Below, in pieces: positions 3,058-21,653 of a DNA stretch of 27,759 nucleotides (its first letter is position 1; each line of letters opens with the position of its first letter). The DNA comes from a virus, in IMG/VR virus record IMGVR_UViG_3300031566_000295, positions 1 through 27,759 of that record; one strand, given 5' to 3'. The notes below the pieces were generated by a model that saw nothing but the letters and a program-made list of their open reading frames with translations, was not told the DNA's origin and did no database searches. The translations under genes were made by a program, and so were the position numbers.

Positions 3058-3061
3058 AAGA

Positions 3062-3628: not shown

Positions 3629-5301
3629 GATTTCAGTTTTTCAAGATAATCCAGTACTTCTTTCTTATTAAGTGGGTATAATACCTGCTCTGCACGGCTC
3701 TTATCCACATAGACGGTTACCCCCTTAAGTTCATACAAGTACTCCTGTAACCAACTGGCTAATTGGATTACAGAGGTTCCCGCTGGAAGATTAACAGTCT
3801 TACTAATAGCCCCATCAATGTATTTTTGAATACTGGCTTGTACCTCAAAATGTTCCTCTGGTGTAAGATCATAAGAATCTACAAACCAATCTGGAATCTT
3901 CTCTTTTTTACAGAGAATCTCTTTATATAAAGGGTGAATATATATCCGCTCTCCTATTTTATCCTTCCTACAATAGGCCTTGGAAAACAGCGGCTCTATA
4001 CCACTAGTAACCCCGGCAACAAGAGAAATAGTACCAGTAGGAGGACAAGTTAATAACGCAACATTCCTAATACCAAACTTCTTAATACGTATCCTTAGTT
4101 TTGCCGGCAATTTCCGAATAAACCTAGCCTTACTAAATTCCACAGTATCAAACTTAGGAAATACCCCCTTTTCAATTGCCAATTCTACACTAGCATTATA
4201 TGCCTCATCCCGAATAAATTTAAATAACCGCTCTATCTCCTCATTAGCCTTTACTGAACCATAGCGTAGTTTCTTCATAAAAAGATAATCTGCTAATCCC
4301 ATTACCCCTAATCCTATCCTCCTACTATCCTCAGCCACAACCTTCATTTCATGTATAGGAAATGTAGTAAGATCAATTACATTATCTAATAACCGCACAG
4401 CAAGAGGAATTGCTTTCGCAAGATTAAGCCATTTTGTACTACCGTCCTTAGGATTTACAAATTTTGGTAATACCAAAGAACCTAAATCACAAGAACCATA
4501 TGCTTGTAAAGGTAACTCACCGCAAGGATTAGTTGCTATTACTGGGGCGTAATAGAAGCTATTTGCCTTTAAAAGATTACTCATATTAATAATCCCAGGT
4601 TCTGCACTAGTAATAATATTTTTTAAAATCTTATGCCATAAAACCTTAGCCCTAATCTGTTTGTATTCCCTGGCACCATAAGTAAGTTTCCAAAAGTCAT
4701 CACGCTCTACCGCCTCAATAAACTCATTTGTTATGGCGACAGAAATATTAAAATTTTTTAATTTATCATGTTTTAATTTTGCGTCAATAAACTCTTCAAC
4801 CTCCGGATGGGAAATATCAACAATAGCAATAGCAGCTGCCCTCCGCTGCCCCCCACTCTCTATCGTAGTAGCAACAGCATCAAGAGCAGTAATAAAAGAC
4901 ACAAGACCAGAAGAATACCCACCCTTACCTTGGATCTGTGTTCCTTTTGGCCGGAGGGAAGAAAAATTTATACCAACACCACCTCCAGCAGCCCATGTAA
5001 TCAAAGAATCCTTAATACAGGTACCAATCGCTTCTATATTATCCCCAATTGGAAGTACAAAACAATTCAACATATTCCTATTATACTGCCCAGCATTCCT
5101 TAGAATTCTACCACCAGGAAGAAATAATTTTGAATTTATTAAATTAAAAGTATCCTCTAAAACTGCCTTATCACCATCACTTTTTGAACAAAGTGCTATA
5201 GCCACCCTTCTTGCCAATGCTTCCCACTTCTCACCATCTTGATAATATCTAGATTCTGCAACAGTTTCCTGGTGCTTCAAATCCACATTAAGATACCTCA
5301 T
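3625..5301 (-). CDS. nrdJ: Adenosylcobalamin-dependent (class II) ribonucleotide reductase
   Basis: Reduces ribonucleotides to deoxyribonucleotides for phage DNA synthesis, using a B12 radical. It has 558 residues. Class II-like motifs include the first redox Cys in MLNCFVLP, the Gly-rich AAGGGVGINFS, SGGQRRAAAIAI, the radical site NPCGELPL (Asn, Cys and Glu all present), the second redox Cys in YGSCDLGSLVL, PPTGTISLVAG followed by SGIEPLF, and DGAISKTVNLP. No small (NrdB-type) subunit gene is nearby, which favours class II. The C-terminus (DKSRAEQVLYPLNKKEVLDYLEKLKS split by no Cys) lacks the CxxC-type tail that usually re-reduces the active site. Its ATG overlaps the end of queE by 4 bases, with GGGG 6 bases upstream. 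It is last in its unit, and its stop is part of the next promoter. Confidence 0.9.
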   Translation of the reverse strand: MRYLNVDLKHQETVAESRYYQDGEKWEALARRVAIALCSKSDGDKAVLEDTFNLINSKLFLPGGRILRNAGQYNRNMLNCFVLPIGDNIEAIGTCIKDSLITWAAGGGVGINFSSLRPKGTQIQGKGGYSSGLVSFITALDAVATTIESGGQRRAAAIAIVDISHPEVEEFIDAKLKHDKLKNFNISVAITNEFIEAVERDDFWKLTYGAREYKQIRAKVLWHKILKNIITSAEPGIINMSNLLKANSFYYAPVIATNPCGELPLQAYGSCDLGSLVLPKFVNPKDGSTKWLNLAKAIPLAVRLLDNVIDLTTFPIHEMKVVAEDSRRIGLGVMGLADYLFMKKLRYGSVKANEEIERLFKFIRDEAYNASVELAIEKGVFPKFDTVEFSKARFIRKLPAKLRIRIKKFGIRNVALLTCPPTGTISLVAGVTSGIEPLFSKAYCRKDKIGERIYIHPLYKEILCKKEKIPDWFVDSYDLTPEEHFEVQASIQKYIDGAISKTVNLPAGTSVIQLASWLQEYLYELKGVTVYVDKSRAEQVLYPLNKKEVLDYLEKLKS

Positions 5302-5939
5302 ACTTGCCCCAAAATTTTATGAATCTGACAGGATAAACGCCACTTTGGATTCTTTCTAAGTAACTCAAATACCACAGCAAAAGCACTTCTAATATCCCAC
5401 AATGGGGCGGTATTTTGGTATTCCTGGGCAAGTGCTGGCTGTAAATAATAGTACTTAAACCCCATATTTTCATAGTACTTTAAATTAAATTCTTCTACAT
5501 CCCAGTTATCTATTACCAATTTTAATTCATCCCCATCTGTAAAAAATGATTTTGTTTTAGGGGAAATTGTCACCCAATCCAGCCCAAGCCTATCCTTATT
5601 CATTAGGACGGTACCATTTGTTTCCACAGCAACTTCCTTCACCTTTCCAACCTTTAACAATCTAATTAATTCAGTAAGACTTTCATGATCTTGTAAAAGT
5701 GGCTCACCACCAGTGAATATCATAAAATCTGAAAATAAAATAGATTCTAAAAGTTTATCTGCCAACTCTCTAGGTTGATATCCCCCACCACTTGCGGCGG
5801 TCTGTGCCCAAACAGTATCGCAAAACTCACACCTCAAGTTACATCCAGAAAATCGCACAAATGTTGCCTGTCTACCGGCATGAAACCCTTCTCCCTGAAT
5901 CCCCTTAAACATTTCTGATACAATTAAATGTTTACTCAT
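5298..5939 (-). CDS. queE: 7-carboxy-7-deazaguanine (CDG) synthase, radical SAM
   Basis: Converts 6-carboxytetrahydropterin, the product of QueD, to CDG with SAM and an iron-sulfur cluster. It has 213 residues, the usual QueE length. Visible are the substrate loop FKGIQGEG (11-18), the QueE-type CX3CX2C cluster motif C33-C37-C40 (CNLRCEFCDT), the radical-SAM GGEP at 77-80, and VETNGT and ISPKTKS further on. Near the end, SCQIHKILG matches the family's conserved His-Lys. It overlaps queD by 8 bases and nrdJ by 4 bases, so it is tightly coupled. Phages use QueE for DNA deazaguanine modification or to perturb host queuosine metabolism. Here a DpdA-like gene at 19375 makes DNA modification the better guess. 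Confidence 0.92.
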   Translation of the reverse strand: MSKHLIVSEMFKGIQGEGFHAGRQATFVRFSGCNLRCEFCDTVWAQTAASGGGYQPRELADKLLESILFSDFMIFTGGEPLLQDHESLTELIRLLKVGKVKEVAVETNGTVLMNKDRLGLDWVTISPKTKSFFTDGDELKLVIDNWDVEEFNLKYYENMGFKYYYLQPALAQEYQNTAPLWDIRSAFAVVFELLRKNPKWRLSCQIHKILGQV

Positions 5940-6372
5940 TATTATCTACCACTATAGCACTAGCAATATCAGATTCCCAAACCTGAACAGACACTAGTTT
6001 TATCTTATTCCAGATGGTAAGGGAATAATACTGTAAGTCCGCCCCTACCTGACTAAAAATCATATAGGCAAGATTCTCACATGTAGGGTTTCCTGATGTT
6101 AAGGCAATTCTTCTAAGTCCAAATTTACCAATCATATCAAATAGTGGATCAGAAGGATTCAATAAAACACTATGGTCAAAATTAGAAATAGTTTTAGTAA
6201 ATAGTGATTTCAAAACCTTGAAATCCACTACCATTCCAGTATCCCCCACTGGTCCACTAACTGTAAATCGAACTTTCCACGTATGGCCATGAAGATTGAC
6301 ACAAAGACCATCATGGTCTAATAGCCTATGTGCCGCATCAAATTTTAATTCCATAACTAATATAGTATCCAT
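5932..6372 (-). CDS. queD: 6-carboxy-5,6,7,8-tetrahydropterin synthase
   Basis: Converts 7,8-dihydroneopterin triphosphate, made by GTP cyclohydrolase I, to 6-carboxytetrahydropterin, the substrate of QueE. It has 146 residues. The zinc ligands are H15 (FDAAHRL), H28 and H30 (NLHGH), with catalytic C24 in the right spacing. GMVVDFKVLK, FDHSVLLN, NPTCENLA and VQVWES are all typical of QueD. The start at 6372 follows a strong GGGGGAAAGG. It overlaps queE. The first enzyme of this pathway is encoded about 14 kb away as a fusion (20706-21653), so the pathway is divided between two transcription units. Confidence 0.92.
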   Translation of the reverse strand: MDTILVMELKFDAAHRLLDHDGLCVNLHGHTWKVRFTVSGPVGDTGMVVDFKVLKSLFTKTISNFDHSVLLNPSDPLFDMIGKFGLRRIALTSGNPTCENLAYMIFSQVGADLQYYSLTIWNKIKLVSVQVWESDIASAIVVDNNE

Positions 6373-6381
6373 CCTTTCCCC

Positions 6382-6789
6382 CTATTTACCAGCCAAAATA
6401 TTTCTCTTACTAAGATCCTGCATTTCCTTCTCCAAGTTTGTAGTAACTAAAACACCAGCGTTTGGATAATGGATATCCATGAACCTTGTTAAATTTCTTT
6501 GAAACTCTTCCTCATTATTATGAATATTTTCCTCTACCGCTACTATAAATGCCTTAGTCATAGCAAAATGGGTATCTAGGATATTAGCAATAGTACCCAT
6601 AGTGATTTTAAATTCAAGATCTAACCTTTCAGTCAACCGTTTATTCCGACGTAATTTATTACGTGTATGTTTTAAAAGCTCTATTGAGTATATGAGCCTT
6701 GAGGCAATTTCAGACAGTTTAACAGCCTCCTTGCCGGCATATATCTTTGTAGTTGGAACACCAGATTTAGTCTTTTTACTCTTACTCAT
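6382..6789 (-). CDS. Unknown helical protein
   Basis: A 135-residue protein of unknown function. The N-terminus is Lys- and Ser-rich (MSKSKKTKSG), then come long helices (residues 24-85) with an Arg- and Lys-rich patch around residues 42-53 (TRNKLRRNKRL), and an acidic stretch (EENIHNNEEE). No Cys pair, membrane segment or enzyme motif is seen. The start follows GGAGAAAAC and overlaps the end of the winged-helix ORF upstream by 8 bases. Its position between a winged-helix ORF and queD gives no clear clue. Confidence 0.75.
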   Translation of the reverse strand: MSKSKKTKSGVPTTKIYAGKEAVKLSEIASRLIYSIELLKHTRNKLRRNKRLTERLDLEFKITMGTIANILDTHFAMTKAFIVAVEENIHNNEEEFQRNLTRFMDIHYPNAGVLVTTNLEKEMQDLSKRNILAGK

Positions 6790-7000
6790 TAGTTTTCTCC
6801 ACCCACTGCCATAAATAATACATAGGCGGATTCACTGTTTGATACTTCCTAGCACCAAACATCCGTATTTTTGTTATATACCCATGTTTTTCGAGAATTC
6901 TAAGATCACTCCTTAATAAACCAAACTCCCCTGTTTTTATGGCCTTCTTTTTTCTGAATACTTCAGTAGCACGGGAAAGAAGTTCATTAGATATAGGCAT
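6782..7000 (-). CDS. Small winged-helix-like protein
   Basis: A 72-residue protein that looks like one winged-helix DNA-binding domain: a recognition-helix-like stretch (LLRSDLRILEKHGYITKIRMF) followed by a beta wing (ARKYQTVNPP). I chose ATG 7000, 8 bases after AAGGAG; the GTG one codon upstream (7003) with spacing 5 is also possible and would extend the protein to 73 residues. Its start overlaps the stop of the lytic transglycosylase. It could be a small transcription regulator of this unit. No specific family is recognised. Confidence 0.7.
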   Translation of the reverse strand: MPISNELLSRATEVFRKKKAIKTGEFGLLRSDLRILEKHGYITKIRMFGARKYQTVNPPMYYLWQWVEKTNE

Positions 7001-7713
7001 CACATAAACTCCTTCAATTTCTTTTCAATGGAAATGGCATATTTTAAACTTGCCTTTGGAGTATCAGAGTTTACGGCCACCATAAGATTACTAACCGCCA
7101 TAGTACTCCACTGATATAATGAAAAGGTTAGTTTCCAATCATCCTTAGACGCCACACCACCAGCAATGAATTTCAATTGATAATCAACAAGCCTTCTTAT
7201 ACCTAACCTAAAGTTCCATATTGGATCATCAACATACTCTAAAACTTGTTTTTTAGATAATCCCTTTAACCCAAAATATCTATCCAAACCATCAATAGCC
7301 GTAATATACATATGCTGTGTAAGCCCCATCGCCCCAGCATAAGATTCTACAGTTGGATCAAAATTACTTTCTACATCAATCCAGGCAAAAATCTTCCAGT
7401 ATTCTAATCCAATTGGAATTTCCCCAGTTTCCCCATTATATTTTTGATGGTAAGTATAAGTTAATAGTGCTAAATTTCGTAAAGTATCATCATCCATATA
7501 CTCCCTACCATTCTCAAACCAAATATCTAAAATTTTCTTATAAAGTAAAACCTCATTAGATACAGTCTTAAAGGACTCAACATTTCCCATAATTTTAACA
7601 TACTCAACCTTTCTTTGGGCCCTTTCTTGAATAATAGCGTAGGACAAAACACCAAGGCCAATAAAACAAACGCAAAGAGCAACATTAAAAGCTACTAAAC
7701 TACTTTTTTTCAT
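7000..7713 (-). CDS. Membrane-anchored lytic transglycosylase (SLT fold)
   Basis: Cleaves the glycan strands of peptidoglycan. It has 237 residues. The N-terminus has one hydrophobic segment after MKKSS (about residues 6-28), which could be a signal anchor or a signal-arrest-release sequence. The SLT catalytic domain follows: catalytic E115-S116 in WIDVESNFDP, then AGAMGLTQ (126-133), the family signature. The WNFRLGIRRLVDYQ segment matches the usual helix bearing the substrate-side residues. It is the first gene after the promoter at 7733-7761, with AAAGGAGAA before ATG 7713. It lies in an operon with nucleotide metabolism genes and without an obvious holin, which is odd for a lysis gene. 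Confidence 0.85.
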   Translation of the reverse strand: MKKSSLVAFNVALCVCFIGLGVLSYAIIQERAQRKVEYVKIMGNVESFKTVSNEVLLYKKILDIWFENGREYMDDDTLRNLALLTYTYHQKYNGETGEIPIGLEYWKIFAWIDVESNFDPTVESYAGAMGLTQHMYITAIDGLDRYFGLKGLSKKQVLEYVDDPIWNFRLGIRRLVDYQLKFIAGGVASKDDWKLTFSLYQWSTMAVSNLMVAVNSDTPKASLKYAISIEKKLKEFM

Positions 7714-7732
7714 TTTGATTCTCCTTTACTTT

Positions 7733-7761
7733 ATTATAAAATATTTACTCATAAAAATCAA
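7733..7761 (-). promoter_or_regulatory. Sigma70-type promoter for the lysin-queD-queE-nrdJ unit
   Basis: On the minus strand: -35 TTGATT (7761-7756), a 17-base spacer, -10 TATAAT (7738-7733, perfect). The start is expected near 7726, giving a very short leader that begins almost at the ribosome site. The first 10 bases of the box plus spacer (TTGATTTTTA) and a GTAAATA in the spacer are shared with the promoter at 15755-15783. Confidence 0.65.
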
Positions 7762-7766
7762 TTCTA

Positions 7767-8318
7767 CTATCCTCTATAATGAGCAAAATCAATCCAAGAA
7801 AAAACCTCACTCAGTAGAATAAACGTACAAAATACCTCATCACTAAATATAGTATAAAACTTAGAATCTGGAACACCAAAAATATCTAATAAATCATTAA
7901 AAACAGGCTGTGATAAAATAGCAATATTATTTTTCCCATATAATTTAAAAACCACCATGGGCAACTTCCCAGTAGGAATTGAATCCAATTTAGCCTGCTC
8001 CACCCAATCAAACATAGCAGATTCAGCGGAATATAACCCAGAAAAAAAATGCTTTACATTCTTTGCATTCCAATTCTTACATTCAATAGAGAAAGGAAAA
8101 GTAGAATCTGGTTCCAGCTGTCCTGTACCATCCCCACCATCTTTAGCAGTAAATAAAAATGGTGATATATCCCCACAAATAATCCTTTTATCCCAACCGC
8201 CGGATTTTGGTACCCTTTTAAATACACCTTCATTATTGGGGTAATACTGTTCAGTAAATAACTTAGCAACAACCAACTCATATGCACCACCTTTTGGTCT
8301 TTGCCTACCCTTTTTCAA
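7767..8318 (-). CDS. Hjc/RecB-like PD-(D/E)XK nuclease, probable Holliday junction resolvase
   Basis: Likely cuts branched DNA to resolve recombination or replication intermediates before packaging. It has 183 residues. The order of motifs fits the Hjc-like nucleases: E14 in GGAYELVVAKLF, RVPKSGGWD (36-43), acidic D50 in ICGDISP, and the E79-C-K81 catalytic pair in FSIECKNW. An insertion rich in Gly and Asp lies between D50 and E79. The start is TTG at 8318, supported by AGGAG 7 bases upstream; no ATG lies in a suitable place. It ends the recombination unit, after SbcCD and two unknown genes, which fits this role. Confidence 0.75.
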   Translation of the reverse strand: MKKGRQRPKGGAYELVVAKLFTEQYYPNNEGVFKRVPKSGGWDKRIICGDISPFLFTAKDGGDGTGQLEPDSTFPFSIECKNWNAKNVKHFFSGLYSAESAMFDWVEQAKLDSIPTGKLPMVVFKLYGKNNIAILSQPVFNDLLDIFGVPDSKFYTIFSDEVFCTFILLSEVFSWIDFAHYRG

Positions 8319-8361
8319 TATAAACTCCTATTGTGGCAATATAATATTTTACATAAAGCAT
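8305..8361 (-). CDS. Possible 18-residue leader ORF overlapping the nuclease start
   Basis: A tiny ORF (MLYVKYYIATIGVYIEKG) with AAAGGTGA 5 bases before its ATG. It overlaps the first 14 bases of the TTG-started nuclease gene in another frame. Ribosomes finishing it would end just past the nuclease start, so it could couple or tune translation of that gene. It may also be chance; the size allows no test by sequence alone. The rest of the 94-base gap (8319-8412) shows no convincing promoter. Confidence 0.25.
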   Translation of the reverse strand: MLYVKYYIATIGVYIEKG

Positions 8362-8412
8362 TATTTCACCTTTCTAAAACTTAAACACTCAGTTTTTACC
8401 TCGCAATCCATC

Positions 8413-8784
8413 CTAACTCACCACTAATGGCTTATCAGGATCTGGACCATATTTATTAACCGTAAATCCATAGCTACAGTGGAATACCTCAAAACCAGGC
8501 TCAACTGTTAATATTGAAACAACCCTCTTTCCATCCTCCCCATCATCCTCACAAACATCAAAACTATGTACCTTAAATTCAGCAACTAATAACTCTCTCC
8601 AAGTAAGAATAAATGATTGTATATAATTACCATGGCATAAGGATGCCCCAATTTTAAGTTCCTTGAAAAGAAGAGATTTCTTCCTCATTGCGGCTGGATA
8701 AAGTAGCCTATACTCCTCCTCCTTTTCTGGAAATTTCCGTAATGCACCATGAATCTTTTGTGTAAAACTCCAATCAATTTTCAT
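8413..8784 (-). CDS. Unknown protein
   Basis: A 123-residue protein with no family that I recognise. The N-terminal half is helical and basic (PAAMRKKSLLFKELKIG), the C-terminal half beta-rich with an acidic loop (CEDDGEDGKR). Three Cys are scattered, with no metal-binding spacing. A good ribosome site (AAAGGAGAAATATA) precedes ATG 8784, so it is a real gene. It lies between another unknown gene and the Hjc-like nuclease in the recombination unit. Confidence 0.75.
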   Translation of the reverse strand: MKIDWSFTQKIHGALRKFPEKEEEYRLLYPAAMRKKSLLFKELKIGASLCHGNYIQSFILTWRELLVAEFKVHSFDVCEDDGEDGKRVVSILTVEPGFEVFHCSYGFTVNKYGPDPDKPLVVS

Positions 8785-8796
8785 TATATTTCTCCT

Positions 8797-9276
8797 TTAA
8801 AAAGCCTGTTCCCACTTTCTATTCTTTTCATTCCAAGCAATATCATGTAGTACTCGAAAAACATGTAAACAAAGACATTTCTCAAGTGTAAGGCTAGTCT
8901 GATCAAACATCCTAACAGCACCACGTAGAATTGTTTTATCCCAGAGACAAGGAAAATTTTTTACCATATCTAGCCACTGATCAATTCTTGGTACCCAAAC
9001 TGGATTATATATGTTATGAATAACATATTCCTCTCTACGCATAACTACCCTATCTAGGCTACTTTCCATAGTAAAGGGAGTTATGTCCGATGGCATAGCC
9101 ACATAAAAGTGCCTATCATATCCATACCTAAAATGGTCTTTTACCTCTATAAAGTCATATGAAAGAACCTTAAGGGAATCCCCAGACCAGACAAAATCAC
9201 CATACTCAGGCTTCCAAGATTCCTGCAATACAACTGTATGGCACATATCTCTATAGTCCGTTGTTTTATCCATCAT
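8797..9276 (-). CDS. Unknown phage protein with WKPEYGDFVW and WVPRIDQW motifs
   Basis: A 159-residue protein. It opens with a segment like those seen in many phage proteins of unknown role (QESWKPEYGDFVW), has a middle WVPRIDQWLDMV motif, and ends in a helical region with FRVLHDIAWNEKNRKW. It is rich in Trp, Tyr and Asp. There is no membrane segment. It overlaps the end of the SbcC-like gene by 11 bases; two ATGs in a row (9276 and 9273) are possible starts. The function is not known to me. Confidence 0.8.
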   Translation of the reverse strand: MMDKTTDYRDMCHTVVLQESWKPEYGDFVWSGDSLKVLSYDFIEVKDHFRYGYDRHFYVAMPSDITPFTMESSLDRVVMRREEYVIHNIYNPVWVPRIDQWLDMVKNFPCLWDKTILRGAVRMFDQTSLTLEKCLCLHVFRVLHDIAWNEKNRKWEQAF

Positions 9277-11188
9277 TTAACTCTGATATACCATCTTTTC
9301 TCTCTATAATAATAAGATTATCAAAATAATCCCTAAGTTCATTTTGATGGCTGATTACAAATATTGCCTTATCCCTGGATGATTCTTTTAACAAGTTTAC
9401 AGTATTTTCAATCCCAACTATATCCAAACACTCAAATACTTCATCAAAAATTACTAAATTACAATCCTTTACACTTCGCCTAAAAATAAGACTCTGAAGT
9501 GCAAGAAGAATAGAAATATCTATCCTAGCCTTTTCCCCGTTTGAACAAGTTTCATACCCAACCTCTATATCATTAGCAAGTATCTGAACAGAAAATCTAT
9601 CTCGTTTTTCACCACTTTTCAACGTTGCCTCTGTATCAAATCTAACTACCATCTCATCCCCCAAAAGAACAGAAGCATACTTACTAACCTCATCATTTAA
9701 CTCAGGTAAAATCTCATCAAGTAGAAATGATTTTATTCCTTTAGGCCCAAATCCCTCTACCCAGAATTTATAATACTCAATATCTAATTCTATCCCAGCA
9801 TATCCAGATTTTAACTCCTCATCTTCCTTCTCTGATTCAGCAATTTTACCTTTAAGTTCCTTTAATTGATCACCTATTTGTTCTTTTTCAGTTTCAAGTA
9901 ACCTACCAATATTCCTAAGTTCTACAGCAAAATTACTAATCTTATTTTCAATCTCCCTAATAGTACTTTTTCTCCTCTCCATTTTTAGTTTCTCTGTATG
10001 AATAAACTCCTCTACTGCACTCTTTAATTTCAACGCCTCATCCAACTTCTTATCAAAAATAGCGGTTATTTTCACCACCTCCGCCAGGGCAACTTCATAC
10101 TTTTTCTTGGCTTCATCTAATAATGGGGATAGTTTATCAAGCTCACCATGAAGATGTTCCAAAACCTCTGCAACTGATTTCTCATCTACTACAGAGTAAC
10201 AAGTTGGACATCTTACCCCCTTCTCCGAGATAGTTACCGCCTGTATGGCGTCCTTTAAAGTAGAAACCTTAGCGGAAAGTGTACAATATGTGACATTACT
10301 TTTCTGAGTAATATCATTTAAATTACTAATTGCTGTAATCTTTTCTAGCCTGATTTCACTAAAAGCAGCAAAATACTTATTCTGTTCCTCATTAAGTTCC
10401 TCAATATTACTACTAGATTTTTCATACTCTTCCTTAGCTGTGGTAAGTTCTGCCTCTAAAACCTTCTTCTTATTATTAATATCCGCTGATACTAAAGCAG
10501 AATCGACTTCCTTTTTCTTAAATAATTCACCCTTAAGTTTTAACTGGCTATAGTCTACTACACATTTTTCTAAGTAGGCCTCTATCCCAGTAATCTTAGA
10601 GGAAATTTCACCCATATCCTCAATTAACTCTTTTATCTTATCCTTCACCATTTGGCATGGTTCATCAAAGATATTTAGCATAATCAATTCATCAAAAATC
10701 TTTTTCTTCTCTGTATCATTTGCCTCAGTAAACCTTCTAGCCTTTTCACCAAAAATTATTGCAGTAGAAAATAACAACCAGTCCAACCCAATAGTACTAT
10801 CTATTAATTTTTGGGTTTCTCTCTTACTCAATTGGGTTAAATCCTGGGAACCCTTTATAAGACGTAAAGAACTACCTAAATCAGAGTCATTAATGGATCT
10901 GATAATATCATACTCACCTTCTTCCGTTGAAAATGATACATTCACAATACAGTTTTTACCTACATCCCTATTCACAATTCTATCAGCATCAGCATTTCTA
11001 ATTGTTTTACCAAAAAATGCAAAACAAAGAACTTCAAAAAATGCACTTTTCCCTGCCCCATTACTATTTGATATAGTCCTGCCAATCACATCACCACCGA
11101 CAAAGTATAACCCGGATGTGGGAAAGGTATACTCAAGGGTTTTAAAACTTAAAAAATTACTGGCACTAACCTTTAATATCTGCATCAT
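9266..11188 (-). CDS. sbcC: SbcC/Rad50-like (T4 gp46-like) recombination ATPase
   Basis: Works with the SbcD/Mre11 partner encoded just upstream to process DNA ends for recombination-dependent replication. It has 640 residues. Walker A SNGAGKS is at 42-48 in the N-terminal lobe. Long coiled coils follow (about 200-470), broken by a zinc hook C327-P-T-C330. The C-terminal lobe has Walker B NLVIFDE with D582/E583 and the H-loop His near 614 (FVISHQ). The length is close to T4 gp46 and shorter than bacterial SbcC (about 1000). It starts in an ATGA overlap with the stop of sbcD. A second ATG follows directly. Confidence 0.93.
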   Translation of the reverse strand: MMQILKVSASNFLSFKTLEYTFPTSGLYFVGGDVIGRTISNSNGAGKSAFFEVLCFAFFGKTIRNADADRIVNRDVGKNCIVNVSFSTEEGEYDIIRSINDSDLGSSLRLIKGSQDLTQLSKRETQKLIDSTIGLDWLLFSTAIIFGEKARRFTEANDTEKKKIFDELIMLNIFDEPCQMVKDKIKELIEDMGEISSKITGIEAYLEKCVVDYSQLKLKGELFKKKEVDSALVSADINNKKKVLEAELTTAKEEYEKSSSNIEELNEEQNKYFAAFSEIRLEKITAISNLNDITQKSNVTYCTLSAKVSTLKDAIQAVTISEKGVRCPTCYSVVDEKSVAEVLEHLHGELDKLSPLLDEAKKKYEVALAEVVKITAIFDKKLDEALKLKSAVEEFIHTEKLKMERRKSTIREIENKISNFAVELRNIGRLLETEKEQIGDQLKELKGKIAESEKEDEELKSGYAGIELDIEYYKFWVEGFGPKGIKSFLLDEILPELNDEVSKYASVLLGDEMVVRFDTEATLKSGEKRDRFSVQILANDIEVGYETCSNGEKARIDISILLALQSLIFRRSVKDCNLVIFDEVFECLDIVGIENTVNLLKESSRDKAIFVISHQNELRDYFDNLIIIERKDGISELNDG

Positions 11189-12219
11189 TTTACCCCATGA
11201 AAAAATTCCCTACCGATAGTAACCAATTTATTTTTATCCAAATCACCCGCACGCATATCCACATATTTGGTTATAATATCCTCTGAAGAATCAGAAAATT
11301 TAATAGTAGATCTTAAGGATTCTTTCCCACTGAATTTATAAGTTATCCGCTTATGCCTAATCACCCCCAACTCACTTGGAAGTAATTTACCATGTACTGT
11401 AATCCTATAATAATCAACTTCTGGATTTCCTGGAATTTTAGTGCCATCATCATAATAATCAACACTGTAAAATTTTGGAGAAATTGTGTTTTCAATAAAT
11501 TTAAGATCCTTTACCCCTTTATCAAAATCAAGTATCCACCATCCTCTCTTTCCACCCTCATCAGAAAATGTATGCTGAAGAGGAGCCCCAACACTTATAA
11601 CATTATCCCTAACCTTAAAAGATTCATGACAATGCCCCAGAAATGATATCTTAAATTTACTGCTTAAAATATCGGCATCAAAACCTTTTTCCACTAAAAA
11701 TCCACCATAATGTACCCCAATTATATCCTGATGCCCAAGGAAGACATCCCCAGATATTTTAGAAAGTACTTCATTCATACCACTAGTACTCCTAGTATAT
11801 GGTGTAGTATACGGAATAAAGACATCATTACAATCCTCAAACTTTTCATGTAGAAACCCAGGTACATCTGCTATCTGTATTTGGTTTTCAAAGTTTTTAA
11901 ACAACTCTAAAAATGCCGGTGAGTAACCCCATAATCTATAATCATGGTTACCGGGAATAATAAACAATGGAAAAAGCCTTGCCATATGATTAAAACAAGA
12001 AGATAACAATTTAAGAACTTGGGTATCCATATTATTTTTTAAATGAGTAAGATCACCAAGAAACAGTACCGCATCAACCTCATTCTCACTGGCATCCTTA
12101 GTAATCCTATCTAGTACAGTAACCTGCTCTGCTAATCTACTATTCACCCCATTTTCATCAATATAGCTAAATTCTTTAAAATTATGTCCATGTAAATCTG
12201 CAAAAATAAGAAATTTCAT
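11185..12219 (-). CDS. sbcD: SbcD/Mre11-like (T4 gp47-like) nuclease
   Basis: The metal-dependent nuclease partner of the SbcC-like ATPase. It has 344 residues from ATG 12219. Calcineurin-type phosphoesterase motifs appear in order: FADLHGH (D8, H10), LFLGDLTH, IIPGNHDY, the LGHQD region, and FLGHCHESF. The frame opens 3 codons earlier with a GTG (12228) in a GTGA overlap with the upstream stop, but GGGGAG lies 8 bases before the ATG and touches the GTG, so the ATG is preferred. It overlaps sbcC by ATGA. Confidence 0.92.
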   Translation of the reverse strand: MKFLIFADLHGHNFKEFSYIDENGVNSRLAEQVTVLDRITKDASENEVDAVLFLGDLTHLKNNMDTQVLKLLSSCFNHMARLFPLFIIPGNHDYRLWGYSPAFLELFKNFENQIQIADVPGFLHEKFEDCNDVFIPYTTPYTRSTSGMNEVLSKISGDVFLGHQDIIGVHYGGFLVEKGFDADILSSKFKISFLGHCHESFKVRDNVISVGAPLQHTFSDEGGKRGWWILDFDKGVKDLKFIENTISPKFYSVDYYDDGTKIPGNPEVDYYRITVHGKLLPSELGVIRHKRITYKFSGKESLRSTIKFSDSSEDIITKYVDMRAGDLDKNKLVTIGREFFHGVK

Positions 12220-13184: not shown

Positions 13185-13196
13185 TAACTTGTACTT

Positions 13197-14153
13197 TTAT
13201 TTAAATAATTCTTTATTGTTATTATAATATTCCGGAAAAGACTTTTTCTTAAAACTTACATCAGTATCACCAACATTTGAAGCATAATTTCCTTTTCCCT
13301 TGTCAATCAGCTTCCCATGCCGAACAAAATAATCAAGTAATCCGCTATATGGATCTATTGGATAATCCGCCAACATTTCAAAATTCACAACTCCAAATGG
13401 TCTACATACCTTTGATTTATCTACACTAATTCTACCCTCATATCCTGTGACTTCTTTTGTTTGGGCATCCTTAATTTGCTTAGTAATCCTACAGTGTAAC
13501 CTAAGAGAATATTGGAATTTCAAAGCCCTTCCACCCACTGTAGATGCCTGCTCTCCAAACATCACACCAACGTTATCCCTAAGTTGGTTAACAAACACCA
13601 TACAGATTTTATGCCGGTGTACTTCAGGGGCTATCCGCCGTAAACCACTACCAATTATAGCTGCTCTTCTAGCGGGCACCATTCTACCACCCAAGTCACC
13701 AGTTAATTCATCCTTACAAGGAATAACAGCAATAGAATCCAGAATAAACGTTACTAGTAAATCCTTATGGTTTTTCTTAATCTGAGTGATTAATTTCTCC
13801 ATCACCTCAAACGTATCTTCCAAAGTAAGAAGCTCCTCATCCGGATTAACAGAGACAATAGAATCCCTGTCTACACCAGTAAGATCCAAAAGCCCAGGGG
13901 CTAGTGAACGTTCAACATCCAAAAATATCACAATCCCACCAAGTTTTTGAGTTTCAGCAGCTATATGACAAACAAGTCTAGTTTTACCACTGGAAAAATC
14001 ACCGTATACTTCGGTGAACTTACCGGCGGGGATGCCCCCGCCGGTAACTATATCCATAGCAATATTCCCAGTAGGAACACGAAACTTAACAAGATCAGCA
14101 AAATGCAAAGAAAGGTCCAATAACTGAACCCCATGTGGCTTAAAGTTTACCAC
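13197..14153 (-). CDS. uvsX: RecA/UvsX-like recombinase
   Basis: Forms filaments on single-stranded DNA and catalyses strand exchange. It has 318 residues. Walker A GDFSSGKT is at 51-58, Walker B is in IVIFLDVE, and the catalytic-core segments VTFILDSIAV and CMVFVNQLRDNVG follow, with the L2-like GGRALKFQYSLRLH. The C-terminus is short, without a long acidic tail. The start is GTG 14153, 5 bases after GGAAAG and 2 bases beyond the SSB stop. Context with SSB, a UvsY-like protein, SbcCD and a 5' nuclease fits a T4-like recombination system. Confidence 0.92.
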   Translation of the reverse strand: MVNFKPHGVQLLDLSLHFADLVKFRVPTGNIAMDIVTGGGIPAGKFTEVYGDFSSGKTRLVCHIAAETQKLGGIVIFLDVERSLAPGLLDLTGVDRDSIVSVNPDEELLTLEDTFEVMEKLITQIKKNHKDLLVTFILDSIAVIPCKDELTGDLGGRMVPARRAAIIGSGLRRIAPEVHRHKICMVFVNQLRDNVGVMFGEQASTVGGRALKFQYSLRLHCRITKQIKDAQTKEVTGYEGRISVDKSKVCRPFGVVNFEMLADYPIDPYSGLLDYFVRHGKLIDKGKGNYASNVGDTDVSFKKKSFPEYYNNNKELFK

Positions 14154-14155
14154 CC

Positions 14156-15295: not shown

Positions 15296-15317
15296 TTAAA
15301 ACCTCCTAAAAATTTTG

Positions 15318-15728
15318 TTAATCTCCAATTTCTTTACTTCTTGTTACAAACTCTGGATCACATTGTTTTCTCATATTTGCAGCAAGGGTAATTGCCATAT
15401 CCTTATTTATCTTAAAAGCCTCAGAAATATACTTTAAAACATCACAAGTCTCCTTTGCCGTTATATACTCCCCATCTAAAAATACAGTACTCTCAATCCT
15501 TTTTTCAGAAAATTTCTCCCCAGCTGCTAAAAAAGCATCTCTTACCTCATTGTTTAATCTGGATTCTGTTGTTCTCAAAACACCATCTGCCTTTACAAAT
15601 AAAATAGAATAAAACGCAAATAAACTTGCCTGTCTCTGTAAATCTTGATTAATTGTCTCTTCACTAAGTTTTAACTCTTCTACATAGTTACACTCATACT
15701 CATTACCACTAATTATGACTTTAAGCAT
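15318..15728 (-). CDS. UvsY-like recombination mediator (putative)
   Basis: A 136-residue, mostly helical protein. The pattern of an early QRQASLFAFYSILFVKAD helix, a following RTTESRLNNEVRDAF helix, KFSEKRIESTV, and a final helix ending in LAANMRKQ resembles small phage proteins grouped with UvsY-type mediators, which load the recombinase onto SSB-coated DNA. The size matches T4 UvsY (137). It sits directly upstream of SSB and recA and is first after the promoter at 15755-15783. Sequence similarity to T4 UvsY itself is weak, so the call depends on size, pattern and place. The ribosome site is AGGAG. Confidence 0.5.
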   Translation of the reverse strand: MLKVIISGNEYECNYVEELKLSEETINQDLQRQASLFAFYSILFVKADGVLRTTESRLNNEVRDAFLAAGEKFSEKRIESTVFLDGEYITAKETCDVLKYISEAFKINKDMAITLAANMRKQCDPEFVTRSKEIGD

Positions 15729-15754
15729 TTAAACATTCTCCTATTGTTATATTT

Positions 15755-15783
15755 ATTTTAACGTATTTACCATTAAAAATCAA
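15755..15783 (-). promoter_or_regulatory. Sigma70-type promoter for the recombination unit
   Basis: On the minus strand: -35 TTGATT (15783-15778), a 17-base spacer, -10 TAAAAT (15760-15755, 5/6). The start is near 15748. The TGA stop of the DNA polymerase (15782-15780) is inside the -35 box. Confidence 0.7.
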
Positions 15784-18329
15784 GTTGATAATTTCTCCAA
15801 CTTACCCCAGTGAGTGCCTATAGAAATATCAACGGTTAATGGACAAGTAAGCCAAGGAAATTGTGGGAAAGATACCATTCTACTATTAATAATTTCTATT
15901 AACTTCATCCCATCATCCTCACAAACATCAAATAAACAGGCATCATGTATCTCGGCAACCATCCTACTCTTAAACTGTAAACGCCTCATTTCTTTCCATA
16001 CCTGATAAATTCCTGTAAGTACAATATCACTAGCTGTGGATTGAATTGGCATATTTATTGCCTCACGAATAACGGCTTCATGTTCGGCAGGACCAAAAAT
16101 ATTAGAGGTATTAAAGTATCTTCTCCTTCCAAATGGAGTATCTATATACCCAAATTTAAAAACATGATTGATTACCCGGTTTTGATATTCCTTTACCTCA
16201 GGATAGGCCGTAAAAAAAGCATCTATCCAACCTTGGGCTTCCTTAACACTAGCCTGAAGATCCCTAGAAAGACTCTTTGCGCTAACACCATAAATTACAC
16301 TAAAATTAACAGATTTTGCCTGGACACGTTGCTCATTCTGTTTAGATAGAGGTAACATTGAATTATCCCCAAAAATAGAATACCTAGTAGCCTCATGAAT
16401 ATCCCTACCATCCCTAAAAACTTGTAGTAAATTCCCATCCTTAGAAATATCCGCAAGTACTCTAAGTTCCAACTGAGAATAATCAGCTTCCAAAAGATAA
16501 TCATAAAATGCTGTAAACACCGGCCTGGTATCATACGGTACATTCTGTAAATTAGGTTTAGAACTTGATAACCTTCCAGTACTAGAAATTGTAAATGAAT
16601 ATGTACAGTGAATCTTAGAATCTATCATATCCTCGGAATATCTCTTTAAGTAAGTACTAAGAATCTTTTCTTTTTTCTTATACGTTAATAGATCACCAAT
16701 AAACTCATGCTTATCCTTTACTTGCTCAAGTGATTCAGCATCAGTAGAAACCTTTTTCGTCTTTTTCGTTTTCTTTCTAATTATAATCTTCATCATATCA
16801 AGCAATGATCTAATATCATCAGCGGAATTAAAATTAACTGGTTTGCCCATATTTTTAGCTAATTCAAGAACTTCCTTATAATTCACCATCCTATCTTCCA
16901 AGGTAGTTATTTCATCAATATAGTTATCCGTCATTTCCTCTAATGCCCCAAGATCCAAACATACTCCAGTTTCTTCCATCTCTGCAATACACATCATCGA
17001 CGGTACAACAACCTCAGTTATCGTTTTTCTTTGCAAGTCGTCTAAATTACTCCATTGAACATCCTTAATCTTTTTAGTAAGAAAAGCATCCAAACAATTA
17101 TAACCAGCAACCTCCTCTATAGGAGTATCCTTTAAGGTTGTTGGATCTATCTGATATCCACCAAAATCAGTATATTTCCAAGCCATTTCCTTCAACCCGG
17201 TAGGTACATATTTACCATGTAAAAAATACTCTGCAAATTGAGTATCATAGTATAAATTCCTAACCTGTATTCCATATCTTTTAAACATAAATTTCATATC
17301 AAACTGGGCATACTGCATAATTAATTTTACTTTACTATTGGTAAACAAATAATCAAATCCATCCAATACTTCCAAAGAAGAATCCTTAAATGGGGATTGT
17401 GAATGTTCCAAGGGAATAAACCAAGTATCAATACCATCTGAAAATGCCATAGATAGTACCGAATCATCATGATAATTACGACTAGGAGTCTCAATATCAA
17501 ACGCCAATTCAACTGGCCCCCTATCCTTAATCATCTCCAAAAACAATCTAATTTTAGAAGAAGTATCCAATATGGAATATTCAATGGAAGGAGGCATATA
17601 CACAGAAGTAAATACCTTTTCAAGATCCTCCCTAAATTGCTCTTCCACAGCATGGTCATTGCTTCTAATGACATAAGATGGATGCCAGGTACAAAAAATT
17701 GTCCTACCATACATATTCTTACTTATCCCATATCCACGCAATCTTGTAATAGAATATTTCCCTAAAAGTGCCCTAGTTGCCACACCACCTAAAGCCACAA
17801 TAAACCCATCAAAGTTAGCTATTTCAGAATTAAGATACCTCTTTTTACAGTAGCCTACCTCAGAATCAGCCGGAGTCCTATTTCCAGACGGCCTGCATTT
17901 GCAAACATTTGTAAATGCTACCTGATCATCAGGAAACCCAATATCCTTCAAAATACCACGTAAAAATTTACCAGACTTACCAATAAAAGGTTCACCGCCG
18001 GCAACTTCCTCTGCCCCCGGTGCTTCCCCCACAAAAAGAACCTTTGCATCGATAATATTACTTGTTGCTGGAACAAAATATCTATGATCTAATGTACAAT
18101 TATCACAAACATCAATGCTAGATCTGTTTACCGGATTAGCCCTCTCATCCATACAGTTATCAAATGAAAGGTTCTTACTTTTTAATAATTCCTCTACCTC
18201 ATCCAAAGTGTACAAACGCATTGCCCCTGGTACTTGAGGAACCCTAAACCCAAATTGTTCCCTAATTTCCCTAGGAGAGTATACCTGCTGCTCAGAAAAT
18301 AAAAAATTTTGTAATCTATCTCTAGCCAT
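15780..18329 (-). CDS. polA: DNA polymerase I (family A) with N-terminal family 4 uracil-DNA glycosylase domain
   Basis: The replicative polymerase of the phage, 849 residues, in three parts. Residues about 70-240 form a family 4 UDG: cluster Cys C75, C78, C145 and C161 (the last two 16 apart, as in UDGa), GEAPGAEE (101-108), and HPSY (H216). Residues about 270-420 form a 3'-5' exonuclease with D278/E280 (FDIE), D344, Y410 and D414 (YNCLD). Residues about 430-849 form the polymerase: motif A around D616 (LEADYSQLELR), motif B with K672 and F676 (AKSVNFSVIYG), and motif C H795-D796 (EIHDACLF). There is no 5' nuclease domain; that is a separate gene. All catalytic residues appear intact. It is the last gene of the unit that starts with the Gpt-FolE fusion. 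Confidence 0.95.
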   Translation of the reverse strand: MARDRLQNFLFSEQQVYSPREIREQFGFRVPQVPGAMRLYTLDEVEELLKSKNLSFDNCMDERANPVNRSSIDVCDNCTLDHRYFVPATSNIIDAKVLFVGEAPGAEEVAGGEPFIGKSGKFLRGILKDIGFPDDQVAFTNVCKCRPSGNRTPADSEVGYCKKRYLNSEIANFDGFIVALGGVATRALLGKYSITRLRGYGISKNMYGRTIFCTWHPSYVIRSNDHAVEEQFREDLEKVFTSVYMPPSIEYSILDTSSKIRLFLEMIKDRGPVELAFDIETPSRNYHDDSVLSMAFSDGIDTWFIPLEHSQSPFKDSSLEVLDGFDYLFTNSKVKLIMQYAQFDMKFMFKRYGIQVRNLYYDTQFAEYFLHGKYVPTGLKEMAWKYTDFGGYQIDPTTLKDTPIEEVAGYNCLDAFLTKKIKDVQWSNLDDLQRKTITEVVVPSMMCIAEMEETGVCLDLGALEEMTDNYIDEITTLEDRMVNYKEVLELAKNMGKPVNFNSADDIRSLLDMMKIIIRKKTKKTKKVSTDAESLEQVKDKHEFIGDLLTYKKKEKILSTYLKRYSEDMIDSKIHCTYSFTISSTGRLSSSKPNLQNVPYDTRPVFTAFYDYLLEADYSQLELRVLADISKDGNLLQVFRDGRDIHEATRYSIFGDNSMLPLSKQNEQRVQAKSVNFSVIYGVSAKSLSRDLQASVKEAQGWIDAFFTAYPEVKEYQNRVINHVFKFGYIDTPFGRRRYFNTSNIFGPAEHEAVIREAINMPIQSTASDIVLTGIYQVWKEMRRLQFKSRMVAEIHDACLFDVCEDDGMKLIEIINSRMVSFPQFPWLTCPLTVDISIGTHWGKLEKLST

Positions 18330-18331
18330 TT

Positions 18332-19366
18332 TTATCTCATTTTCGCTATAATATGCCTAGTATTACCCTCATTTACAGCAACACAATTAGAATACACATA
18401 AAAATTTTTCCATCGCAATAGTAACTCAATAAACAACACCATATTTATTCTAAAATTGCCAATAGGACCACTAACAGCTGCAGAAAACTCTGTACTAAAA
18501 TCTTCATTTTTATTCACAGATTTTATAAAAACACCAACAGAATCAGTATTAATAGAAATTAACCCATCATTATTAAACCTATCCCCCTTAACTATTGCTA
18601 AAATACTAGTAAGTTCCTGATTCTCAATATTACATTCACTAACCTTTGTATAATTACCAGTAAGTTGTTTTTTAAATACACGCTCAAGATCTGGATACTT
18701 TATATCCAACTCAGAACTATAAGTGTAAAAATTTGGGTACATAAAAAATAATACACCATTCTCCCTATAAAACCCAAGCGGGGCATCCTTTAATGCCCTC
18801 AACACCCCACAAAAATCATAAGATATAAAGGAATCTGCAATCCCTGTAAAAACAGGTGGTAACTCTAAAGAGTATGCCCTAACATTATCACAAGAATAAA
18901 TCTTATTAGAATTAATGTACACCCCATACAAGTTTAATTGCCGCACATCCTCTGTTACAGCAAACTCTGCCATACCCAAAGATTCTACAAACTCCGTAGG
19001 ATTTTTAAACATAATAATCTTATCAGCATCAGCAATTGGAATGTTAATTTCAACATCCGCAATTAAAGTAGATTTATACCTTGTTCTTCCCATCTTCCAC
19101 ACCATTCCAGAACCTGATACCTCAATATCAACAAATTCTAATGTCTGGATTAATGGTAACATCTTTGACAACACCTCAAATGGAAGACTAAATTCATGGG
19201 ATAATTGAAAATCATGAAATATTACTACCCCAGAATATAAATTTCTGGCAAGAATTCTATCCTTATAAAAAAATATATGATTTAAAGATTGATCAAATGG
19301 AACCTTCTGTAAAAATAGTTTTACTATACCTACAATACCATACAATTCTTTGGCTTTTATACGCAT
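18332..19366 (-). CDS. Sliding-clamp-like protein (DnaN fold, putative)
   Basis: A 344-residue, beta-rich protein just upstream of the polymerase gene. Residues 145-166 (NLYGVYINSNKIYSCDNVRAYS) resemble the DnaN signature in which a conserved strand is followed by 'atDghRla'. The length is near that of bacterial beta clamp (about 365), and repeated strand-rich blocks fit a three-domain clamp. A role in polymerase processivity is inferred from the fold pattern and its place. ATG 19366 is preferred because GAGG lies 6 bases upstream; a TTG 12 bases earlier in a TTGA overlap is possible. No clamp loader is seen in the window. Confidence 0.5.
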   Translation of the reverse strand: MRIKAKELYGIVGIVKLFLQKVPFDQSLNHIFFYKDRILARNLYSGVVIFHDFQLSHEFSLPFEVLSKMLPLIQTLEFVDIEVSGSGMVWKMGRTRYKSTLIADVEINIPIADADKIIMFKNPTEFVESLGMAEFAVTEDVRQLNLYGVYINSNKIYSCDNVRAYSLELPPVFTGIADSFISYDFCGVLRALKDAPLGFYRENGVLFFMYPNFYTYSSELDIKYPDLERVFKKQLTGNYTKVSECNIENQELTSILAIVKGDRFNNDGLISINTDSVGVFIKSVNKNEDFSTEFSAAVSGPIGNFRINMVLFIELLLRWKNFYVYSNCVAVNEGNTRHIIAKMR

Positions 19367-19374
19367 AATATTCC

Positions 19375-20319
19375 TCAAAATAGGGTATTCTGTCTAACAA
19401 TTCGCTCTGAAGTGCCAGAATCCCTAGAATTGTTTATATAGTCCTCAAATTCTAACCAGGCAAGAAAAGAGATGTAACACCTACACCACCAATCATTAAG
19501 ATCAGAAACTTTAATAGAGTACTTCACAGATAAATACTCCAATATAGCAGGTGATACTTTTTTTGTACTCATAATTCCAGCAACATATACTGTGGATAAT
19601 TTTTTAAGTTCAGTATTAAAAATAAACACACTACCATGACCAACAGCAAGGGCCACACTCACAGAATCAACAGAATACCATGGGTAACCCTTTACCAAAG
19701 ATGATGATGTAATTCCAAAACCATGTAAATTAACACTAATACCAGTATCTTCTATATGAGTAAAAAGACTATCTAACCATAACCTTTTATTTTTATCTGA
19801 TACAGCCCTAGCCATTCCACCTATCCCAATATAATCTACCCCAATTTCCAAATATCTATCTAAAACTCCTAAATCTTCACCAAAATGATATACAGGAATA
19901 TTAACAACACCTGCTTCCTTCATCCTTACATAATTTAAATAACTAGTATTACTAGCATTCTTAAGTTCATCACCAGTAGGAGCAGTAGAAATTGTTCCAG
20001 GAATCTTATCCAAACCAACAAAATATAACTCACCCCATTGTGATTCAGTTAATTCCTTCTTACAAAAAGCAATATAACTATCAAGATCCACCTCAGTACC
20101 AGATTTCCAAATAGAGTAGGCACCTGAATCAAGCATCATTTTCATACCACTGCTAAACCCACCTACACCCAGTTTTATCAGCAGATAACTCTTTATTTCG
20201 GAGTAAGTATACAACACAGCTGGCCCTTTCCCAATAAATTTGTCAAACCATATTCTAGATTGATCACCTACAACAGGAACAGTCCTACTATGACCAAAAT
20301 AAATAGTTAATTTATTCAT
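19375..20319 (-). CDS. dpdA: DpdA/TGT-like guanine transglycosylase
   Basis: Predicted to exchange guanine for a 7-deazaguanine base, probably in phage DNA. It has 314 residues and a TIM-barrel layout like bacterial TGT. D64-S-G (MMLDSGAYS) matches TGT's TDSGGF. D104 lies in FVGLDKI. VPVYHFGED (142-149) and IGIGGMA (164-170) match TGT's GGLavGE region. HGFGITSSSLVKGYPWYSVDS (split over 199-219) places D218 where TGT has its nucleophile Asp. The CxCx2C-His zinc site of bacterial TGT is not seen; only WWCRC occurs near the end. This pattern is that of phage DpdA-type proteins. It lies between a cREC-like gene and the clamp-like gene, in the same unit as the Gpt-FolE fusion. Confidence 0.78.
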   Translation of the reverse strand: MNKLTIYFGHSRTVPVVGDQSRIWFDKFIGKGPAVLYTYSEIKSYLLIKLGVGGFSSGMKMMLDSGAYSIWKSGTEVDLDSYIAFCKKELTESQWGELYFVGLDKIPGTISTAPTGDELKNASNTSYLNYVRMKEAGVVNIPVYHFGEDLGVLDRYLEIGVDYIGIGGMARAVSDKNKRLWLDSLFTHIEDTGISVNLHGFGITSSSLVKGYPWYSVDSVSVALAVGHGSVFIFNTELKKLSTVYVAGIMSTKKVSPAILEYLSVKYSIKVSDLNDWWCRCYISFLAWLEFEDYINNSRDSGTSERIVRQNTLF

Positions 20320-20322
20320 ACC

Positions 20323-20703
20323 TTAAATCCCTAAATTAGTAAAAATAGTACCAAGATTATCCACCCAGGCAAATGGATAAGCCAAAGCCTCTGGAAGAAC
20401 ACTAATAATATTTTTCCTTCCTGCTTCATTCAAAGAATGAGTTATAATAGTCTTTGGCTGTAGATCCCTATTTTCAACTAACCACAAAGCCAAATCATAT
20501 CCAGTAGGCTCTTCACCAAAAGAATTAACATAAACCCTACCACCTAAGTCATGATCAATAAATAAAACATCAAATTTAGCCCCCTGAAGGTTTCTAACTG
20601 CGCTTTCAACAGTAGCTACTACAGTAACAGTATTACCAACATAACCCCACCGTAAAAAGGCTATCTGACGTGAAGAATCATCTTCTAATACTAATATATC
20701 CAT
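20323..20703 (-). CDS. Receiver-like protein of the cyclic-phosphate processing (cREC) type
   Basis: A 126-residue protein with a receiver-like fold: an acidic start E7-D8-D9 (LVLEDDSSR), then D50-H-D52-L-G-G (FIDHDLGG), TGYDLALWL, and IITHS with H89. The DHDLGG plus HS pattern marks the cREC family, predicted to act on cyclic or terminal phosphates of RNA rather than as a phosphorelay switch. There is no output domain. It lies 3 bases after the DpdA-like gene's start side and 2 bases after the fusion gene's stop, so the three are co-transcribed. A link to RNA end repair or to deazaguanine metabolism is inference. Confidence 0.7.
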   Translation of the reverse strand: MDILVLEDDSSRQIAFLRWGYVGNTVTVVATVESAVRNLQGAKFDVLFIDHDLGGRVYVNSFGEEPTGYDLALWLVENRDLQPKTIITHSLNEAGRKNIISVLPEALAYPFAWVDNLGTIFTNLGI

Positions 20704-20705
20704 TA

Positions 20706-21653
20706 TTACTTCCCTATCAATCTTAAAAATTCATTTCTTGTAGCAATTTTTTCCCTAAACACTCCATGCATATAACTAGTCGTCATTTTTGCATTTTCTT
20801 TTTTAATCCCCCGCATTAACATACACAAATGAATTCCCTCTACAACAACTGCTACGCCATTAGTCTGCATAATATCATCAAACTCCTCACCTATTTGCCG
20901 AGTCATACGTTCTTGAATTTGTAATCTCCGGCTAAAAACCTCTACTAATCTAGAAATTTTAGAAATCCCAACAATTCTACTTTTAGGGATATATGCAAAA
21001 TGAACTTTTCCATAAAATGGAAGCATGTGATGTTCGCACATTGAATAAAATTCTATATCCTTTAGTATAATCATTTCATCATAACATTCACTATTAAAAT
21101 TAGTACTAATAATTTCCTTTGGATCTTGATTATACCCAGAAAATAATTCATCATATGCCCGTGAAATTCTACTTGGAGTACCTTTCAACCCCTCTCTTAA
21201 TGGATCTTCCCCAATACTCCTTAATAAGGCAGTCACCGCCTGCTCCCTAGCCCCTGAAAAAAAACTATCTAAGGACCCTTCCCAAGGAAAAACATACCAA
21301 CGTTTATCAGATGAATCTTTAGTATATAAAAATGTAAAGTTAACCTTTCTTAATTTCTTTTCTACAGCAAGGTTCTTAAAAAATTCTACTGTTGCTCCTG
21401 TATCCAAAATATCATCAACCACTAAAATTCTTTTCCCTTCTAATCCATCAAAAGCACTCTTATCAAAAGGATTAACTATTAATAATTTTATAGCCTGATA
21501 TTTTTGCATCTTCCAAAGAAGAGTAGCAGGAATAATTCCACCCCTTGATACTCCTATAATATAATCAAGATCTGGAAAAATCTCCTTAAAAAGGTGAACC
21601 ATATCCAAAAGTTTTTCCTCTACCATTTTCATACTAATAACTTTTCTATCCAT
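20706..21653 (-). CDS. folE: Fusion: Gpt-like phosphoribosyltransferase - GTP cyclohydrolase I
   Basis: Two enzymes in one 315-residue chain. Residues 1-130 are a type I phosphoribosyltransferase resembling xanthine-guanine PRTase: GVSRGGIIPA (34-43), the PRPP loop ILVVDDILDTGAT (76-88), and WYVFPWE (119-125). Residues about 134-315 are FolE, which turns GTP into dihydroneopterin triphosphate: zinc and catalytic C206-E-H208-H209 (SMCEHHMLP) and C277 (HLCMLMRG), exactly 71 residues apart as in E. coli FolE (110 and 181), with TPSRISRAY and TTSYMHGVF. All key residues are present in both parts. FolE feeds QueD and QueE encoded at 5298-6372. It is the first gene after the promoter at 21671-21699, with GGGAG before ATG. 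Confidence 0.92.
   Translation of the reverse strand: MDRKVISMKMVEEKLLDMVHLFKEIFPDLDYIIGVSRGGIIPATLLWKMQKYQAIKLLIVNPFDKSAFDGLEGKRILVVDDILDTGATVEFFKNLAVEKKLRKVNFTFLYTKDSSDKRWYVFPWEGSLDSFFSGAREQAVTALLRSIGEDPLREGLKGTPSRISRAYDELFSGYNQDPKEIISTNFNSECYDEMIILKDIEFYSMCEHHMLPFYGKVHFAYIPKSRIVGISKISRLVEVFSRRLQIQERMTRQIGEEFDDIMQTNGVAVVVEGIHLCMLMRGIKKENAKMTTSYMHGVFREKIATRNEFLRLIGK

Follow-up and report, generated by a model that had tools for sequence, protein, structure and literature searches.

The Mycobacterium phage Bipper (KU728633) encodes a DpdA transglycosylase and no QueC, and it has been suggested that its DNA may carry the substrate of QueC, which makes it a possible 7-carboxy-7-deazaguanine (CDG) phage (Hutinet et al., 2019, PMC6884629). 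Its host, M. smegmatis, is without the queuosine pathway (PMC6884629). Phages with DpdA and without QueC are thus already known, and in this study we found additional ones. We analyzed the virus record IMGVR_UViG_3300031566_000295, here called the window, an incomplete record of 27,759 bases that represents a tailed-phage fragment with its replication genes on the minus strand. The window encodes FolE, QueD, QueE, and a DpdA-type transglycosylase, and QueC is missing from the segment between its FolE and DNA polymerase genes (the FolE-Pol segment). This absence is the new observation, as three collinear relatives have Gat-QueC and a QueC-like gene there. Our preferred reading, to which we give close to an even chance, is that the phage makes CDG and that DpdA inserts CDG or a derivative into its DNA.

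Pathway enzymes and transglycosylase of the window

The genes for the FolE fusion, QueD, QueE, and the transglycosylase all lie on the minus strand, and each is an open, full-length open reading frame (ORF) with a strong family match:

20706..21653, minus strand: phosphoribosyltransferase (PRTase)-FolE fusion (Pfam GTP_cyclohydroI 2.2e-73; Pribosyltran 1.2e-7)
19375..20319, minus strand: DpdA-type, putative DNA guanine transglycosylase (PHROG 887 6.3e-38, residues 32-297)
5932..6372, minus strand: QueD, 6-carboxytetrahydropterin synthase (PTPS 4.2e-29; NCBIfam QueD 8e-25)
5298..5939, minus strand: QueE, CDG synthase of the radical S-adenosylmethionine (SAM) type (PHROG 2076, QueE-like, 2e-30; CxxxCxxC present as CNLRCEFC)

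These matches agree with a reading made earlier from the sequence alone (the sequence-only reading), which had named FolE, QueD, and QueE as a set leading from GTP to CDG. The QueD translation shows the His / C-x3-HGH / PTxEN pattern, and its score of 87 bits falls slightly short of the NCBIfam cut-off of 89.25; the NCBIfam QueE model matches QueE at 6.8e-40, below its equivalog cut-off. The sequence-only reading had also called FolE a fusion and left the partner unnamed. The fusion is real, and the partner is a purine-type PRTase that occupies approximately residues 1-125 at the N terminus, with an intact phosphoribosyl pyrophosphate loop (VVDDILDTG), followed by GTP cyclohydrolase I at approximately residues 137-313. 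The PDB matches to the fusion are GTP cyclohydrolase I (3e-56) and, as the nearest solved structures for the PRTase part, purine PRTases (3.4e-7).

Several lines of evidence support the assignment of the transglycosylase to the phage DpdA type rather than to the tRNA-guanine transglycosylases (TGTs), with DNA as its likely target, as the sequence-only reading had suggested. A Pfam scan of the protein gave no family to E 0.1, including PF01702 (tRNA-TGT), whereas PHROG 887 was matched and the protein groups with phage DpdAs; tblastn found matches in 229 phage records, including 9g, CAjan, and Dp-1. When the window protein was aligned with 44 relatives from viral contigs, to which it is 23-37% identical, D64, S65, G66, H199, and D218 were invariant among the 45 sequences and S216 almost so, in agreement with the D64 and D218 motifs noted earlier. 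The protein has 314 residues, and no cysteine is conserved among the relatives, so there is no TGT zinc-site motif. The structure comparison that the sequence-only reading had proposed for this protein points to a TGT fold: in the AlphaFold2 model (pLDDT 88, pTM 0.87), tRNA-guanine transglycosylases rank top by Foldseek, and VIA-align against TGT gave Z 20.5 over 272 aligned residues. A profile search of the PDB returned a sole match, the DNA-guanine transglycosylase 7ui4 (E 0.012), and PADLOC returned no DpdA match. DpdA1 enzymes are marked by a conserved His that is absent from DpdA2 (PMC6884629). H199 of the window probably corresponds, by its position, to His 196 of that criterion, and the predicted barrel of TGT fold, the two catalytic Asp residues, and this His would place the protein with DpdA1.

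The search for QueC and the collinear relatives

A second contig of 22,361 bases (G001), whose polymerase is 100% identical to that of the window over residues 285-849, reaches about 4.9 kb beyond window position 1 and carries terminase, portal, and head protein genes there. Neither the window nor G001 has a match to the QueC family PF06508 at E<=10, and when a phage QueC profile was compared by hhalign with all of their ORFs, the probability never exceeded 1.9% (positive control, 100%), which rules out a QueC hidden in either. The absence of QueC reported by the sequence-only reading therefore stands for the window and also for its extension; of the preQ0 synthesis set, the window has FolE, QueD, and QueE, with catalytic motifs. 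Gat-QueC is likewise absent from the window, and a weak overlap of a QueF profile with the FolE domain was the only sign of a QueF-type gene, no searches specific for ArcS or QueF-L having been made.

Single-sequence scans of viral contigs with DpdA and FolE found no close relatives, and it was only with alignment queries that they were found. The DpdA alignment query yielded 80 contigs with DpdA. Among the 50 that were searched whole, QueC was present in 40 and QueE in 37, while five had QueE without QueC (G009, G016, G024, G026, and G036; G024 is a 14-kb fragment in which QueE is partial). The loci L097-L099 are likewise without QueC. QueC was found in 12 of 13 named phage records checked, which indicates that the screen is able to detect it. 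QueC and DpdA are no more than 3.3 kb apart in 38 of the 40 QueC-bearing contigs; in L028, one of the two exceptions, the two genes are at opposite contig ends.

Three relatives of 35-98 kb are collinear with the window: G039 (IMGVR_UViG_3300031999_000006, 96.6 kb, containing locus L056), G053 (34.7 kb, L116), and G054 (98.4 kb, L117). In G039, the collinearity takes in both the window and its extension and runs from the head protein gene to the helicase gene, and the stretch visible in G053 and G054 agrees. Protein identities between G039 and the window are mostly 40-56% (TerL, 56%; PRTase-FolE, 54%; RecA, 49%; polymerase, 40%), with 35% for a Holliday-type nuclease and merely 28.6% for DpdA; the clamps, although both match PHROG 947, show no detectable similarity (17%, z 0.4). 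The FolE-Pol segment of G039 holds a radical SAM gene, a methyltransferase-like ORF, a short-chain dehydrogenase/reductase (SDR), Gat-QueC (541 amino acids), a QueC-like gene (240 amino acids), the clamp, and DpdA, and G039 has no further QueC genes. G053 and G054 have the same layout but with two SDRs and without the methyltransferase-like ORF. The stretch from radical SAM to QueC-like gene, between PRTase-FolE and clamp, occupies L056:3738-8721 and, in both L116 and L117, positions 2889-7880; this gene set possibly leads to a hypermodified base of the archaeosine type. In the window, the fully sequenced FolE-Pol segment holds cREC, DpdA, and the clamp only, with no QueC in the homologous position. 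Because of this, and because QueC is near DpdA in 38 of 40 contigs, we estimate with fair assurance that the phage probably lacks QueC altogether, rather than having lost it from view at the end of a fragment. The genes that flank DpdA and QueE are as follows:

20323..20703, minus strand: cyclic-phosphate-processing receiver domain (cREC) protein (PF20274 3.4e-15)
18332..19378, minus strand: sliding clamp, DNA polymerase processivity factor (PHROG 947 4.6e-14)
15780..18329, minus strand: fusion of a uracil-DNA glycosylase (UDG) domain, 3'-5' exonuclease, and family A DNA polymerase (Pfam UDG 1.3e-28, exo1 1.3e-14, DNA_pol_A 3.4e-92)
3625..5301, minus strand: class II (adenosylcobalamin) ribonucleotide reductase (NrdJ_Z 2.5e-148), a neighbor of QueE outside the pathway

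The cREC gene sits directly upstream of DpdA, where the relatives keep their QueC genes. Of the 48 DpdA-phage or deazaguanine-phage records compared, the window alone has it; as a recurrent substitute for QueC it was rejected, with position as the sole support and none of the 47 other records carrying it. In the polymerase, the UDG-type domain is N-terminal and joined to the exonuclease and PolA domains. A scan of genome contigs with this polymerase for a host matched mainly its UDG domain in unrelated bacteria and gave no host assignment. The QueD-QueE pair adjoins the ribonucleotide reductase gene about 13 kb from the FolE and DpdA genes. The sequence-only reading had assigned the genes to two transcription units, a division that was not borne out: all the genes are codirectional, and promoter and terminator counts are no higher than in shuffled sequences. 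Elsewhere in the window, ARAGORN found a tRNA cluster at 2829-3576 (Leu, Leu, Gln, His, Pro), to which Rfam added a sixth tRNA at 3148-3224; the ORF at 2799-3230 is tRNA sequence translated as protein. The protein encoded at 1544-1906 bears a weak resemblance to sigma-70 region 2 (Pfam E 0.045; PHROG sigma factor 5e-4) and is kept in G039.

The inserted base and the rival explanations

In the mechanism that we propose, FolE would convert GTP to dihydroneopterin triphosphate, QueD would carry this to 6-carboxy-tetrahydropterin (CPH4), and QueE would produce CDG, where the phage's own genes would end. Once the phage DNA has been replicated, DpdA would replace guanines in it with the deazaguanine, using the TGT mechanism, with Asp218 as the nucleophile and Asp64 as the acid/base by analogy with TGT, and the resulting dCDG or derivative would probably act as a shield against nucleases. 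The PRTase domain on FolE may turn the guanine released by DpdA back into GMP. PRTase-FolE fusions are common in phages. Among the 80 DpdA loci, 22 have a PRTase fused to FolE and 5 have a separate one, compared with none of 75 control loci from DpdA-lacking relatives of the polymerase, the loci being of unequal length and near-duplicates occurring among them. The fused count omits L021, whose extension lacks the PRTase motif, and because fused copies were used to build the profile, the noncircular evidence consists of the five separate PRTases (and that of the phage phiST). The DpdA exchange must release guanine, which a guanine-type PRTase would return to GMP, and the recurrence of PRTases in DpdA loci suggests such recycling. 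In a limited literature search, we found no discussion of the fusion.

The fate of CDG in the cell could be different if the host has QueC. Host QueC could convert CDG to preQ0, in which case the phage genes would do no more than raise the flux to CDG and DpdA would insert preQ0 (as dPreQ0). DpdA of 9g, when expressed alone in E. coli, inserted preQ0 made by the host (PMC6884629), and the window DpdA retains a pocket-side loop motif, IGGM, that is shared with many QueC-bearing phages and weakly favors a substrate of the preQ0 type. We nevertheless consider this explanation rather unlikely, since QueC in a host is normally accompanied by QueD and QueE, so that a phage bringing those two and no QueC would be odd, and most phages with this type of DpdA carry their own QueC. 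A QueC or Gat-QueC encoded outside the sequenced portion of the genome, with preQ0 or archaeosine as the base as in the relatives, is distinctly unlikely. The record is a fragment, the location of QueD already differs between the window and G039, and two contigs have QueC distant from DpdA on the linear map; against this stand the 38 of 40 contigs in which the two genes are close and the confinement of the QueC genes of G039 to the very segment that is fully sequenced in the window. It is highly improbable that the genes function in pterin metabolism or in making tRNA queuosine, with the transglycosylase acting on tRNA. FolE, QueD, and QueE are common to the queuosine pathway, the transglycosylase has the TGT fold, and phages with pathway genes but without DpdA exist (PMC6884629); the protein is, however, related to phage DpdAs, with PHROG 887 matched at 6e-38, PF01702 unmatched, and the zinc-site motif of TGT absent.

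Along with the possible action of host QueC and the IGGM motif, the extent of the sequence weighs against insertion of CDG. The sequence-only reading had called for a search of the full genome for QueC; that search now includes the 4.9-kb extension, where none was found, but the window and G001 cover only about 33 kb, relatives reach 98 kb, and the FolE-Pol segment of the window is supported by one contig. Furthermore, for the window DpdA, divergence in place is as possible as a swap, because the DpdA tree joins it only weakly to the DpdAs of the relatives and phiSM (SH-aLRT 89); we dropped the tree as proof of a segment swap for this reason. We regard it as doubtful, and on balance unlikely, that the FolE-Pol segment is an exchangeable end-of-pathway module that is of the archaeosine type in the relatives and, in the window, a cREC-DpdA-clamp set inserting CDG or a new derivative while PRTase-FolE recycles guanine.

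Phages that have DpdA and lack QueC offer a test of whether the accepted base varies among DpdA enzymes and of whether DNA bases change through swapped end-of-pathway genes. The window and its Gat-QueC relatives, which are about 40-56% identical elsewhere, form a natural comparison pair for this purpose, and the PRTase-FolE fusion provides a testable guess on the fate of the released guanine.

Comparison with other QueC-less phages and known systems

On the DpdA tree, the QueC-less rows require five changes (shuffled mean, 8.8); L026, L033, L043, and L053 group together in a single supported clade, and L097-L099 and the window are elsewhere. In three QueC-less contigs, a PAPS-reductase-like PP-loop protein and a glycosyltransferase are encoded just upstream of QueD-QueE-FolE-DpdA (L033:5699-7847, L043:1255-3392, and L053:5211-7271). 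The PP-loop protein, which in L053 is divided between two ORFs and was checked with Pfam for L033 only, could act on CDG instead of QueC, and the DpdAs of these three have a loop altered relative to IGGM. Carbon-nitrogen hydrolase genes occur in two other QueC-less clusters, at L099:8090-9124, between QueE and FolE, and at L026:13049-14080, slightly below the Pfam cut-off. L026 also has two tandem DpdA genes (9986-12035), the second of which matches PHROG 887 at 2.5e-36.

Among known systems, Bipper resembles the window in having a DpdA-QueD-QueE-FolE set that ends at CDG, with no QueC in 77.8 kb, and its DpdA is 30% identical to that of the window over 202 residues. It differs in that its genes form one compact cluster that adjoins the terminase gene and has no cREC, and its FolE gene, at 627 bp, has no PRTase fusion. 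The Cellulophaga phage phiST (NC_020842) also has FolE, QueE, and QueD and no QueC in 79 kb, along with a separate PRTase gene, but no DpdA of the PHROG 887 family was detected in it; phiST reportedly carries another deazaguanine. The Queuovirinae phages CAjan (dPreQ0) and 9g (dG+) share with the window the FolE-DpdA-clamp-DNA polymerase order and the DpdA family, whereas they keep QueC or Gat-QueC beside the other pathway genes and the window has QueD and QueE at a distance. The Gat-QueC relatives share a collinear backbone with the window but carry radical SAM, SDR, Gat-QueC, QueC-like, and clamp genes between FolE and DpdA, where the window has cREC, a diverged DpdA, and an unrelated-looking clamp.

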